Shown: positions 5,279-21,482 of the stretch, in pieces | Numbering within the stretch: position 1 is the stretch's first letter | How the letters are laid out: each line of letters begins with the position of its first letter | DNA from: a virus | DNA length: 21,649 bases | Strand: one strand, 5' to 3' | IMG/VR virus record: IMGVR_UViG_3300008448_000779 | Location: 1-21,649 of that record | Translations under genes and position numbers: made by a program | Notes under the pieces: generated by a model | What the model was told of the DNA's origin: nothing | Database searches by the model: none | Seen by the model: the letters and a program-made list of their open reading frames with translations, nothing else

Positions 5279-6520
5279 ATGAAAGTTCGAGAAAAGAATC
5301 ACATTTACGTCCATACCACAAAAGAATGGAGAAAATGTAGTGAACTTATCGGTGGATCAGAGTATCCAATTGGTCTTGATGTTGGTATGACCGAACATCG
5401 CATGTTTGAATATAGGTTTGCAAATGGAGATTATTCTCATTTTTTCACCAAACCAGAAGTTTATGCGATGTTAGAAGTTCATCCTGATCTGACTGACTAT
5501 GCCGTTCATGATCGGATGCTTTCTCACCATTTTTTGAAGAATCCAGATAAAGAAGGTTCTCATGACTTTTTTGTAACTTTTACTCATCAAAGTTATGAAG
5601 ATGCAATTGAAGATATTGTTAAAATCATTCGCAATTTGAATGATTATTACTACGAGTACGAGAAAAAGACTGGGCAATCGCCTGGTAAGTTTCTGAGGGA
5701 GAGAAAAGGTAGAAAGGGTGAAGCACATAGAGTCGTGCCAATGGAACTGATTATCTACCAAACAAATCTATTGCAAAATCTTCCAAAAAATGTTAAAATA
5801 TTTGTTCCTTATGATGCCCATGGTGCATATTGTGAGTATCTAATCAATCAAGGATTTGTGAATATTTTCACTCATAATGTTGAAGAAAATTCTTCTTTGC
5901 CATTGTATGTCAGTGAAAATGAAAATGTAAATCTTATTTCAAACGATGAGTTTATGTCTCAAGCATTTAATGTTGTAATTGGCAACCCACCTTATGGTAA
6001 TGCTGGTAATCTTGCAATTCGTTTCTTGAATTGTGCAGCAGATCGTGTTGTTCCTGGTGGTATTATTAGTCTTGTTTTGCCCACTTCTATTCGTAAACCA
6101 TCTAGTCAAAATAAAATCAGAAAAGATTTACATTGTGTAGAAGACATTGATTGTGATGATAAGTCTTTTCCTGGTGGTATCAATGCAGTTGTCCAACGAT
6201 GGGAAGTTAGGTCTGAACTAAGAACTAAAATTGAAACTTATAAAACTCATCCAGACTTTGAATTTGTCAAGAAAGGTGACCCTAGTGCTAATCTGTTTGT
6301 GATGAGAACTGGTCATGCGGGCAAAGTTCTTACAGAAAATTTTCAACACTATGAATATTCTCACTTTTTTATTCATGCAAAAACTCAACAAGTGATTGAT
6401 ACTATCAAAGAACTTGAACCAAAACTGATTGAACTTGCATCACAAACTAACGGTAGAAATCACGTCTCAAAGCATGAACTTATCGAATCCTATATCGAAT
6501 ACCAAGAACAAGCACAATAA
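5279..6520 (+). CDS. Adenine-specific DNA methyltransferase-like protein (motif IV subunit), 413 aa
   Basis: FNVVIGNPPYG (residues 230-240) is the catalytic motif IV (NPPY) of N6-adenine or N4-cytosine DNA methyltransferases, followed by a VPGGIISLVLPTS strand like the post-catalytic region. Upstream, VKIFVPYDAHGAYCEYLINQ (172-191) sits where a motif I would be but lacks the Gly-x-Gly of an S-adenosylmethionine loop; EcoRI-methylase-type enzymes have a similarly divergent motif. The first 150 residues are not recognised. The next gene carries a perfect motif I and no motif IV, so the two may work together. A short AT-rich leader (5251-5278) follows the cp12 terminator; no clear promoter is visible. 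It may protect phage DNA from restriction or mark it. Confidence 0.75.
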   Translation: MKVREKNHIYVHTTKEWRKCSELIGGSEYPIGLDVGMTEHRMFEYRFANGDYSHFFTKPEVYAMLEVHPDLTDYAVHDRMLSHHFLKNPDKEGSHDFFVTFTHQSYEDAIEDIVKIIRNLNDYYYEYEKKTGQSPGKFLRERKGRKGEAHRVVPMELIIYQTNLLQNLPKNVKIFVPYDAHGAYCEYLINQGFVNIFTHNVEENSSLPLYVSENENVNLISNDEFMSQAFNVVIGNPPYGNAGNLAIRFLNCAADRVVPGGIISLVLPTSIRKPSSQNKIRKDLHCVEDIDCDDKSFPGGINAVVQRWEVRSELRTKIETYKTHPDFEFVKKGDPSANLFVMRTGHAGKVLTENFQHYEYSHFFIHAKTQQVIDTIKELEPKLIELASQTNGRNHVSKHELIESYIEYQEQAQ

Positions 6521-6902
6521 AGAAGTTGGATCTAAAATTGAGAGATCTGATGAAAGAATCAAGATCACTCAAGAAGTGTTCACACCAATGGAAGTTTGTC
6601 AAAAAATGGTCAGTGATCTGCCAGAAGATGTACTGAAAGATCCTACTTCTAAATTTTTAGACAATTCTGCTGGCTCGGGCAACTTTATGGTTGCCCTGCG
6701 GGACAAATTACTTGAATATCACAGTTTAGACCACATTCTTGAAAATATGCTCTATGCTGTTGAACTTATGGAAGATAATCATAAGGAATTGTGTGAAAGA
6801 CTAGGTGTTTCTACCAATCATGCTCACTATATCTGTCACAATGCCCTCACATATGATTATAGTTTCGGTGAACCCATAGGAGTTGAGAAGTATTTTGGGT
6901 GA
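6474..6902 (+). CDS. DNA methyltransferase SAM-binding part (motifs X and I), 142 aa
   Basis: ITQEVFTPMEVCQKMVSDLP (31-50) matches the FTPxxV element at the start of gamma-type N6-adenine methyltransferases. FLDNSAGSGNFMVAL (61-75) is a textbook motif I binding S-adenosylmethionine. YAVELMED (94-101) fits motif II with its acidic residue, and NALTYDYSF (123-131) is where motif III ends. The protein then stops, just before NPPY would be expected, while the preceding gene supplies NPPYG. The frame is +1 relative to that gene; ATG 6474 overlaps it by 47 bp (an in-frame TTG exists at 6429). Either this is a split enzyme, a frameshifted single enzyme, or a fragment. Confidence 0.72.
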   Translation: MNLSNPISNTKNKHNKEVGSKIERSDERIKITQEVFTPMEVCQKMVSDLPEDVLKDPTSKFLDNSAGSGNFMVALRDKLLEYHSLDHILENMLYAVELMEDNHKELCERLGVSTNHAHYICHNALTYDYSFGEPIGVEKYFG

Positions 6903-13627: not shown

Positions 13628-13769
13628 CAGAGAAGCAGACCACATTGCTTGTTTACGGACTCTTATATTTCTCACTTATCTCATTACTAATCTTTTTATT
13701 GTTGCGGGGGTCATAAGACATTGGAATGATGTGTACTATCAACAACCTGTGAAGCATGAACAAATATAG
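13560..13769 (+). CDS. Small membrane protein, 69 aa
   Basis: MKKKKNMWRLWAKALGQKAT, KNDREADHIACLRTLIFLTY, LITNLFIVAGVIRHWNDVYY. The basic amphipathic start, the NMWRLWAKALGxKA motif and one membrane helix at about 34-52 followed by RHWND are characteristic of a cyanophage membrane protein. Despite a 68-bp overlap with the previous gene the frame is convincing. It overlaps the oxygenase gene by 14 bp. Confidence 0.75.
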   Translation: MKKKKNMWRLWAKALGQKATKNDREADHIACLRTLIFLTYLITNLFIVAGVIRHWNDVYYQQPVKHEQI

Positions 13770-14376
13770 AAAGATTATCTTTCCGACTTACATTTATCAA
13801 TACAGTCTTCGGGAGAAGAATCAAGTTCTCAAAGAACTTCTTCTTCCGAAGATATTGCAGTATCAGAAAGATCATCAGATTGATAAACCTGCTGGTTGGA
13901 TTACAGATAAGGTTTATACAACATTTGAGCAGGATAACATCAATTATAAAATGTTTATTCAACCCTCAGAAGTTCGACAGAACTATGAGAAACATTTCAG
14001 TCAGGTATTCGGTAAAGGTACAGAATTTCAGTTCACGACTGCATGGTTTAATTACTATGAGAACGGTGAATATCAGGAAGAGCACGATCATATTGGAATG
14101 TCATTTAATGAACCTGATGCACACTTTTCCGCAATTCATTTCTTACAATTCGATCCAGAACGTCATGTACCCGTGACATTCATTGATTCACTCAGTAAAT
14201 TGAATCGAAGGTATAATAATTTCTATGTGTACAATCCACAGATTCGTGAGGGTGATTTGATTATCTTTCCTGCACATTTGGGACATCGGGTGAGACCATC
14301 ACAACCGACACCAGATTATCCTAGAATCACGGTTGCATTTAATTTACACATTCGGTCAACGATTCATGCAAATTAA
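13756..14376 (+). CDS. 2-oxoglutarate/Fe(II)-dependent oxygenase, 206 aa
   Basis: The N-terminus IIFPTYIYQYSLR matches the IFPTPI-type start of phage 2OG-Fe(II) oxygenases (TIGR02466-like). AWFNYYENGEYQEEHDHIGM (96-115) holds the metal motif (H110, H112 or D111). REGDLIIFPAHLGHRVRPSQ (164-183) supplies the distal His (H177), and R190 in PRITVAFNL would bind the 2-oxoglutarate carboxylate. HFSAIHFLQFD is the typical core strand. Such enzymes hydroxylate proteins or small molecules using O2 and 2OG. It is the first of three oxygenases bracketing the glycine-rich virion protein, so a virion target is plausible but unproven. Confidence 0.82.
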   Translation: MNKYRKIIFPTYIYQYSLREKNQVLKELLLPKILQYQKDHQIDKPAGWITDKVYTTFEQDNINYKMFIQPSEVRQNYEKHFSQVFGKGTEFQFTTAWFNYYENGEYQEEHDHIGMSFNEPDAHFSAIHFLQFDPERHVPVTFIDSLSKLNRRYNNFYVYNPQIREGDLIIFPAHLGHRVRPSQPTPDYPRITVAFNLHIRSTIHAN

Positions 14377-14845
14377 TTTTGTCGATAACTTTTTAACCAA
14401 ACCAGAGCATCAGAGAGTATATCAATACTGTCTGAGTGCGAATTATCATTATGGTGAACCTGATATTGTTGGTTATCCTCCGACAGGTATGGTGCATCAT
14501 ATTTCTGGGCATGAATTTGTCTATAAGTTATTCAGTCGAAAGATTATAGAAACATTTGATTTTCTTGGATCTTTGAAGATGTATCGAATGTATGTGAATT
14601 GTTTTGCACCAGGAGAGAATCCTTATTTTCATATTGATGATCAGACTGGTTATACCTTGTTGTATTATCCACATTTAGAATGGAATCTGAATGATGGTGG
14701 TGAGACACAATTTTATATGGATGATAGTATTCAGGGTATTTGTCCATTACCAAATCGATTATCAATTTTTGATGCATCGATTTTACATCGTGCGACAACA
14801 TTTCGAAATCGTCATCGGTTCACGGTTGCGATCAAATATCGGTAA
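14366..14845 (+). CDS. 2OG-Fe(II) oxygenase (prolyl-hydroxylase-like), 159 aa
   Basis: NPYFHIDDQTGYTLLYYPHL (86-103) contains the HxD pair (H89, D91); DGGETQFYMD is the canonical GGET strand; SIFDASILHRATTF has the distal His (H141), and HRFTVAIKYR gives Arg (R151) for 2OG. All four ligands are intact and in family spacing, so it should be active. ATG 14366 overlaps the previous oxygenase by 11 bp. An AT-rich late-type promoter and the glycine-rich gene follow directly. Confidence 0.84.
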   Translation: MQINFVDNFLTKPEHQRVYQYCLSANYHYGEPDIVGYPPTGMVHHISGHEFVYKLFSRKIIETFDFLGSLKMYRMYVNCFAPGENPYFHIDDQTGYTLLYYPHLEWNLNDGGETQFYMDDSIQGICPLPNRLSIFDASILHRATTFRNRHRFTVAIKYR

Positions 14846-16188: not shown

Positions 16189-16512
16189 ATGAGTATGGAA
16201 CTATCAGAGTTTGTCTTTCATATTGTGTGTGAAATGAACGATGCAAAGTTCTTGTTTCCCGTTCATCCCGAAGAAGAAAAGAAACGATTAGATCATTGTC
16301 TTGATTGTAAACATTATCATGCAGAGAATCAAGGTTGTATTCTGTGCAATTGTTATGTGCCGAATAAGGTGAAACATTTGTATGAAGAATGTCCGATCGA
16401 AAAGTGGGGACGTAATGTCGAATCATGGAATGAGACGTATTATGATTTGTTTGTGAATAAGGTGATTGAAAAGTATCCAGAAGCAGAACAATGGAAGAAT
16501 CTACACAATTAA
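16189..16512 (+). CDS. Cys-rich zinc-binding-type protein (DUF6171-like), 107 aa
   Basis: CLDCKHYHAENQGCILCNCY followed by VPNKVKHLYEECPIEKWG forms a CxxC...CxxCxC...CP array expected to bind zinc. The same array appears in the gene at 17077. The N-terminal half (ELSEFVFHIVCEMNDAKFLF) is helical and not recognised. It is driven by the perfect promoter at 16143-16171 and ends 22 bp into the oxygenase gene. A role as an adaptor or chaperone for tail-fibre assembly is conceivable but unsupported. Confidence 0.68.
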   Translation: MSMELSEFVFHIVCEMNDAKFLFPVHPEEEKKRLDHCLDCKHYHAENQGCILCNCYVPNKVKHLYEECPIEKWGRNVESWNETYYDLFVNKVIEKYPEAEQWKNLHN

Positions 16513-17090
16513 AAGGAACGTATGAAGACTTCATCGGCACATACGAAAATATATTAAGTTTTGATCTGTGTGATGAGATCGTATCCGCATTTGATTATTA
16601 TCATGATATGGATGCCGTCTTTTGTGAAGATCATCAGTTTGAGAATAGTAATGCAGGACGATTTGATTGGGCACTTGATCTAGGTGAACTCGGTGCTCAT
16701 ATTAAACCGACAAATCCACAACAACAGGTTAATGAAGTTCTAAAACAATGTCTGTCTGAGTATACGACCGTGTTTGGACATCTTAAACCAATTACCTTGT
16801 ATTCGATCAATCAAAAGGTACAAAAGACTCCTGCTGGTGGTGGTTATCATGTCTGGCATGATGAGAACAGTGCCATGCAACATTCGGCAAGAGTTGCTGT
16901 TTGGATGTTTTATTTGAATGATGATTTTGAAGGTGGAGAGACTGAGTTTCTGTATTATAAGAAGAGAATCAATCCAAGCAAAGGAACATTACTTATTTGG
17001 CCTGCTGGTTTAACACATTGTCATCGTGGTGGATTAGTCTTAAAAGGAACAAAGTATGTAATCACAGGGTGGTTCTATGTCGGACAATAA
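16491..17090 (+). CDS. Prolyl-4-hydroxylase-like 2OG-Fe(II) oxygenase, 199 aa
   Basis: GGGYHVWHDENSAMQHSARV (116-135) carries the metal ligands (H123 and E125 in the WHxE form). AVWMFYLNDDFEGGETEFLY (136-155) is the signature P4H strand; KGTLLIWPAGLTHCHRGG has the distal His (H176), and K188 in KYVITGWFYVG replaces the usual Arg that binds 2-oxoglutarate, as in prolyl-4-hydroxylases. It overlaps the Cys-rich genes on both sides (22 and 14 bp), so the three are likely co-translated. Substrate unknown; virion protein or host factor. Confidence 0.85.
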   Translation: MEESTQLKGTYEDFIGTYENILSFDLCDEIVSAFDYYHDMDAVFCEDHQFENSNAGRFDWALDLGELGAHIKPTNPQQQVNEVLKQCLSEYTTVFGHLKPITLYSINQKVQKTPAGGGYHVWHDENSAMQHSARVAVWMFYLNDDFEGGETEFLYYKKRINPSKGTLLIWPAGLTHCHRGGLVLKGTKYVITGWFYVGQ

Positions 17091-20585: not shown

Positions 20586-21482
20586 ATGAAAAACACACAC
20601 CTCGAACACCCCGAAGATGAGATCCTCACGGGCAATCTTGATGTTCTGGATTGGTTCACTGCTGCTGGCACTCTCAGTGTTAAGATTGACGGTGCTCCCG
20701 CAATTGTATGGGGCACAAACCCTGCAACTGGTAAGTTCTTCATTGGCACCAAAGCAGTCTTCAACAAAGTAAAGATTCGCATTGCACACAATCATGAAGA
20801 AATCGATCAATTCTATGATGGTGAAGTTGCAAAAATTCTGCACGTTTGTTATGATTGCCTTCCTCATTCAGACTCCATTCTGCAGGGAGATTTTATCGGG
20901 TTTGGTGGATCTGATGAATACAACTCCAACCTACTCACTTACAAGTTCCCAGAGGTAGTAGATCAACAGGTGATCATTGCACCTCACACTCGTTATGAGG
21001 CAATTGCAGATCTTCGTGATAGTTGGGCAATCCCTCTCACGGTGAATCTGGAGTCTACTGATTCCGTGCTATTCGTGAAACCTGATGCATGGATTGCACA
21101 CGGTCAAACCCGATTTGCTGATGTAGAGGAAGTCTGCAACTTTGCCCGACAGATGGCAACCACTGCCACCTTTGTAACTGATAAAGAGGCAGCAAAGATT
21201 AAGCAACAGATCAATGCCTGCATTCGTGCTGGTGAGGAAGTCAACCCTGAAGACTTCGATTGTGATACCAACCTGCTGCGTTTGTGGGCACTGGTGAAGT
21301 CTATCAAAGATGACTGCCTCTATCTCTGCCGCAACAATGGTCCTGCAGCATACCTCTACGGGAATCGCATTGATGCCGAAGGTTATGTACTGACCAATGA
21401 GTTTGGTATGTTCAAACTGGTGAATCGTGAGGTCTTTTCTAATGCTAATTTCAACCACGGTCGTTTCCAGTGTGCCGCATGA
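20586..21482 (+). CDS. Nucleotidyltransferase / polynucleotide ligase-like protein (KxDG), 298 aa
   Basis: VKIDGAPAIVWGTNPATGKF (32-51) contains the KxDG active-site motif I (K33) where ATP- or NAD-dependent ligases and capping enzymes form a lysyl-AMP or lysyl-GMP intermediate. LQGDFIGFGG (99-108) fits motif III, AEGYVLTNEFG (264-274) motif IV (EG) and MFKLVN (275-280) motif V with K277. Order and spacing agree with the RNA/DNA ligase superfamily, although the KIDG-to-motif III distance includes a family-specific insert. It resembles the DUF6267-type phage proteins. It may join nucleic acid ends or be a nucleotidyltransferase of unknown target. ATG 20586 is six bases after the -10 box; stop is in the hairpin loop at 21468-21497. 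Confidence 0.7.
   Translation: MKNTHLEHPEDEILTGNLDVLDWFTAAGTLSVKIDGAPAIVWGTNPATGKFFIGTKAVFNKVKIRIAHNHEEIDQFYDGEVAKILHVCYDCLPHSDSILQGDFIGFGGSDEYNSNLLTYKFPEVVDQQVIIAPHTRYEAIADLRDSWAIPLTVNLESTDSVLFVKPDAWIAHGQTRFADVEEVCNFARQMATTATFVTDKEAAKIKQQINACIRAGEEVNPEDFDCDTNLLRLWALVKSIKDDCLYLCRNNGPAAYLYGNRIDAEGYVLTNEFGMFKLVNREVFSNANFNHGRFQCAA

Follow-up and report, generated by a model that had tools for sequence, protein, structure and literature searches.

What do two overlapping phage genes encode when a DNA methyltransferase motif set is spread over both of them, in reversed order? The window analysed here is the whole stretch of 21,649 nucleotides in IMG/VR record IMGVR_UViG_3300008448_000779. This 21.6-kb virus fragment has Synechococcus phages as its best DNA matches, and its source is a cyanobacterial virus. 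A 74.7-kb IMG/VR contig carries both genes, gene 1 and gene 2, at 100% identity. Their profile matches, phrog_5172 for gene 1 (E 8e-69) and phrog_4376 for gene 2 (E 6e-74), are both labelled 'unknown function' in PHROGs; in isolate genomes, the two genes are mostly labelled 'hypothetical protein'.

Table 1. Features of gene 1 and gene 2, in window coordinates.
Feature	Position	Strand	Basis
Gene 1, putative catalytic/recognition subunit (P0001, 413 aa)	5279..6520	+	ORF; phrog_5172
N-terminal GIY-YIG/T5orf172-like domain of gene 1, putative nuclease	5297..5578	+	profile match; moderate confidence
Degenerate SAM-binding lobe of gene 1 (pseudo X-I-II-III)	5726..5956	+	model strands
Pseudo-motif I of gene 1, VPYDAHGAY	5804..5830	+	replaces D-x-x-x-G-x-G
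Motif IV of gene 1, NPPYG	5984..5998	+	sequence; GN[PY]P[YF]G in 32/32 relatives
C-terminal target-recognition-like region of gene 1	6221..6517	+	M.TaqI structural alignment to model residue 412
47-bp overlap, gene 1 3' end and gene 2 5' end	6474..6520	+	sequence
Gene 2, putative stand-alone SAM-binding lobe (P0002, 142 aa)	6474..6902	+	ORF; phrog_4376
Motif X of gene 2, FTP	6579..6587	+	alignment: F and T invariant, P at least 90%
Motif I of gene 2, DNSAGSGNF	6660..6686	+	alignment of relatives
Motif II of gene 2, AVELMEDN	6756..6779	+	alignment of relatives
Motif III region of gene 2, NALTYDY	6834..6854	+	sequence; protein ends shortly after

Gene 1 and gene 2 divide the methyltransferase motifs between them. 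The initial annotation had described gene 1 as having NPPYG with a poor motif I, and gene 2 as an overlapping +1-frame gene with FTP and a perfect motif I that ends before motif IV; each of these observations holds (Table 1). Motifs X and I of gene 1 are degenerate, and its own chain has no intact motif I ahead of motif IV. Gene 2 begins with an ATG at 6474. Jointly, the two genes contain motif IV ([DNS]PP[YFW]) and motifs X and I. The same division is found among relatives: at IMG/VR loci, motif I is kept in 80 of 80 gene 2 copies and motif IV in 0 of 80, while in 60 of 60 distinct upstream partners motif I is absent from its usual place, with no GxG there. Three regular-expression matches to motif I among these 60 lie downstream of the pseudo-motif and are spurious. 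Two exceptions lie outside this set: one partner in S-CAM7 (L095), whose motif I (DPAMGGGQY) is close to canonical, and a distant locus (L118), where a canonical gamma enzyme is paired with a gene 2-like lobe. Gene 2 is present in 43 phage records and more than 100 IMG/VR stretches. A bacterial genome scan returned no close gene 2, its best match being 39% over generic motif I regions, and alignment scans with distant gene 2 queries gave nothing beyond the Aeromonas phages already known.

The pair is conserved as a unit. The same gene order occurs in S-SKS1, P-SSM2, P-SSM5 and S-CAM7 and in dozens of IMG/VR contigs, and the paired genes nearly always overlap or touch. Among 58 distinct gene 2 loci preceded by 900 nt or more of sequence, 53 have an N[PY]P[YFW] gene no more than 1.3 kb upstream, compared with 2 of 274 control ORFs of the same contigs; for five gene 2 loci, no NPPY neighbour was detected. 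Distances among the gene 1 copies correlate with those among the gene 2 copies (Mantel r 0.62, 0 of 5000 permutations), a result that shared inheritance alone could also produce.

Each gene lacks part of the canonical motif set, as would be the case for unrelated or decaying methyltransferase remnants, or for a single gene cut by a sequencing error. We nevertheless regard such an origin as extremely improbable. The pair recurs in isolate genomes and in dozens of independent contigs; its junctions differ in length and phase (-4, -1 and +1 all occur); the motifs are invariant; and dN/dS is about 0.03-0.12 for both genes in close pairs. Both genes are under purifying selection. A programmed +1 frameshift at the overlap, yielding one fused protein, merits hardly any credence either. 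Gene 2 is indeed in the +1 frame at 70 of 91 junctions, but this common phase is explained by a single inherited overlap, whose bases in several relatives encode both the gene 1 end 'EQA(Q)' and 'KNKH' of gene 2. The -1 phase (ATGA, TAATG) is seen at other junctions, and in ACG-2014f, gene 2 has its own start and occurs without an upstream partner. Remnants and both kinds of frameshift had been listed by the initial annotation next to a two-subunit enzyme; the sequencing frameshift and the unrelated remnants are contradicted by these data, and the programmed frameshift is made unlikely.

The AlphaFold2 model of gene 1 (pLDDT 83) has a methyltransferase fold: its residues 151-412 align with M.TaqI (2adm_A) at Z 14.8 and rmsd 3.8, with 249 aligned residues. 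The strands of the pseudo-lobe are at residues 173-176, 195-199 and 217-220. The model predicts the window's gene 1 to be a fold-complete gamma-class protein whose lobe is devoid of the SAM residues; its C-terminal region may serve target recognition. Since the model shows the whole gamma-class fold, gene 1 is more than one half of an enzyme. The expectation that two structurally complete proteins would speak against a shared enzyme therefore applies in part: the fold of gene 1 is complete, and its SAM lobe is degenerate. The S-SKS1 homologue matches gene 1 across 99% of its length. As a VPxDAxGxF pseudo-motif is conserved in the long-type partners, the pseudo-lobe is not simply decaying. By profile comparison (hhalign E 2e-5, probability 77), the N-terminal ~100 residues of gene 1 resemble the N-termini of partner helicases, one of which is identified as T5orf172 by Pfam; searched against Pfam directly, the N-terminal domain of gene 1 gave no match. 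Judged from these alignments, the likeness of the gene 1 N-terminus to GIY-YIG/T5orf172 domains is suggestive only.

The catalytic partners of gene 2 are of several kinds. The shortest, of ~190 aa, have motif IV in their first residues, such as PSSM2_036 ('MKFTLAIGNPPYG'); starting exactly at motif IV, they are entirely without a SAM lobe. Window-like partners (413-480 aa) have an N-terminal domain and a degenerate lobe. Partners of 1000-1180 aa contain a helicase (ResIII) followed by late methyltransferase parts, and several of them are GIY-YIG/helicase/methyltransferase fusions. Gene 2 is also found after a helicase, a 418-aa methyltransferase and a ~190-aa protein, as in Bellamy, or after a T5orf172-helicase and a ~330-aa methyltransferase. 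Split forms occur in Straboviridae as well (Shigella PSD9_103/102, Vibrio phi-ST2 0371/0372).

In ACG-2014f, gene 2 is located at ~36 kb in all isolates. It is adjoined there by a methyltransferase-helicase set, by a GIY-YIG-like helicase and a gene 1 type protein, or by nothing. Isolates with no adjacent partner have a 301-aa partner (P0005) ~100 kb away; it starts with 'MKFDVVIGNPPYQ' and therefore has no SAM lobe of its own. A catalytic partner was present somewhere in the record in 10 of the 10 gene 2 records searched. The gene 2 list of 43 cyanophage records agrees with the partner lists for 42, the remaining one being a 14-kb fragment cut at gene 2.

Several further arrangements were seen around these loci. 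At five of them (L021, L024, L051, L015 and L018), tandem catalytic genes (NPPF and NPPY), each with motif I degenerate or missing, lie upstream of a single gene 2. In the ACG-2014f C24 partner (L086 7551-8564), the C-terminal region of gene 1 is duplicated internally. In Klebsiella phage KpV477 (L090 1493-2978), the PSD9_103-like partner is apparently broken into ORFs 030 and 029, and the gene 2-like lobe (028) is intact. A 2OG oxygenase gene is placed between the catalytic gene and gene 2 at five loci (L028, L030, L034, L038 and L039); the window has three 2OG-Fe(II) oxygenase-like genes (Pfam 2OG-FeII_Oxy_5 / _Oxy_3) at 13756-14376, 14333-14845 and 16491-17090. Bellamy and several contigs have a DUF6267-like gene immediately 3' of gene 2; in the window, a DUF6267 gene (Pfam 4e-76) is found at 20586-21482. 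The window also encodes, at 596-1624, a nucleotide-sugar epimerase/dehydratase with 83% DNA identity to Synechococcus phage S-SRM01.

The phrog_5172 family also includes one-chain N6-adenine methyltransferases, as in E. coli rV5-like phages and Cronobacter phage GAP32. They share the catalytic lobe of gene 1 and the overall motif set of the pair, but are single chains of gamma order (X-I-IV) with motif I intact; no separate SAM lobe is annotated beside them in these phages. On a canonical one-chain relative of 269 residues, a short gene 1 covers residues 83-263 (hhalign E 4e-23) and gene 2 covers residues 8-54 (E 2e-4). By these alignments, a short gene 1 and gene 2 tile the canonical enzyme, with their order swapped.

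A natural fusion of the two modules exists in 26 records of T4-like Aeromonas phages, in two groups that are ~36% identical. The modules stand there in the same order as in the window. In the fusion protein (383-415 aa), the first element is the strand that leads into NPPY (residues 9-12), and the chain terminates beyond motif III; in Aeh1 ORF084, NPPY is at residue 9 and the gene 2 module spans residues 275-396. Gene 2 matches the fusion's C-terminus with an hhalign E-value of 1e-32, and gene 1 its N-terminus at motif IV with 8e-7. The AlphaFold2 model of the Aeh1 fusion is modest (mean pLDDT 62.8, 7 aligned sequences). Its whole-chain match to M.MboIIA (1g60) has Z 9.6 and rmsd 3.1 with 143 aligned residues; the other whole-chain matches are M.RsrI, CcrM and EcoP15I. 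Gamma enzymes match the model one half at a time, with Z ~5. The fusion has its motifs in the order IV, X, I, and its top whole-chain matches are exclusively beta-class. These matches predict that the two modules fold together as a single sheet, arranged as in the window. This agrees with the earlier proposal that the joined genes would have a reversed, beta-like permuted order. Since both modules are gamma-class by sequence, the beta-like order is a separate permutation.

Our preferred reading, to which we assign a probability of about three in four, is that the pair is a split N6-adenine methyltransferase, with gene 2 supplying the SAM lobe in trans. The two-subunit option put forward initially is consistent with the conserved pair, the natural fusion in the same order and the beta-class topology predicted for it. 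We infer physical association and methylation, as well as the target base and the biological role of the pair; adenine is proposed on account of the NPPY motif and the family. Gene 2 would be a free SAM-binding lobe, made of the motif X helix and strands 1-3 with motifs I-III. Gene 1 would provide strands 4-7, the catalytic motif IV NPPY and the recognition region. The gene 2 lobe would dock beside strand 4 of the catalytic subunit, completing the SAM pocket. As the gene 1 model includes the pseudo-lobe, the trans lobe would have to displace it or sit beside it in window-type partners, where the attached decayed lobe may form an accessory surface. In P-SSM2-type partners the attached lobe would have been lost; in the Aeromonas phages, the trans lobe would have been joined to the C-terminus, giving a single-chain permuted enzyme.

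The main rival to a lobe supplied in trans is a heterodimer in which the altered lobe of gene 1 stays in place, inactive or with unusual SAM binding, and gene 2 has an accessory or regulatory role, as in METTL3-METTL14 or MTA1-MTA9. The complete fold of the gene 1 model, the pseudo-motif conserved in long types and the few partners that retain a near-intact motif I beside gene 2 all point that way. We still consider it unlikely: the lobe-less partners and the single-chain fusion need the lobe of gene 2 to complete the fold, and gene 2 is only half a Rossmann domain, unlike METTL14 or MTA9. In METTL3-METTL14 and MTA1c, methyltransferase-fold subunits cooperate, with SAM binding and catalysis unevenly shared (PMC9174199), but these subunits are complete Rossmann domains.

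With a lobe supplied in trans, the pair resembles several known systems and differs from each. Beta-class amino-methyltransferases (M.MboIIA, M.RsrI, CcrM, EcoP15I Mod) have motif IV and then X-I-III, like the window pair; they do so in one chain, whereas the window pair is split over two ORFs, its halves being gamma-like by sequence. M.AquI and M.EcoHK31I are natural two-polypeptide C5-cytosine methyltransferases (PMC3404938). They build one methyltransferase from two polypeptides, as the window pair would, but the division of these C5 enzymes lies close to the recognition region or motifs IX-X, whereas the window pair is an apparent amino-methyltransferase cut between motifs III and IV, in reversed order and with an exchangeable partner. 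Circularly permuted, single-chain M.EcoKI-like DAMs have been noted in jumbo phages (PMC7824862); they are permuted gamma-like adenine methyltransferases in phages, as the Aeromonas fusion and the window pair are predicted to be, and neither a split lobe nor partner exchange came up in the passages searched of that paper. Type ISP enzymes (LlaGI) combine nuclease, helicase and methyltransferase in one chain and resemble, in domain layout, the 1000-1180-aa GIY-YIG/helicase/methyltransferase partners; for the latter, the SAM lobe is a separate downstream gene. We found no description of the split pair among open-licence papers.

A broader proposal, which we hold to be somewhat better than an even bet, is that gene 2 is a universal, constant SAM-binding subunit shared by the exchangeable catalytic/recognition subunits of T4-like phages, sometimes 100 kb apart, and that the same group of phages retains the steps of a natural circular permutation. 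The proposed series runs from an intact enzyme, through one with an extra lobe, a decayed lobe and a lost lobe, to a lobe re-fused at the other end; it is an ordering of the observed forms, with a putative direction. Linkage to GIY-YIG and helicase modules points to a restriction-modification or selfish system carried by the phage, and restriction, anti-restriction and selfish maintenance are candidate roles of the pair.

Candidate permutation intermediates coexist in sequenced phages and can be tested singly. With gene 2 constant and its partners different, a change of partner would change the target sequence. If this is true, DNA-methylation specificity could be altered by a new route, in which the cofactor lobe stays constant and the catalytic subunits are swapped; such an arrangement would also be a compact natural scaffold for split methyltransferases.
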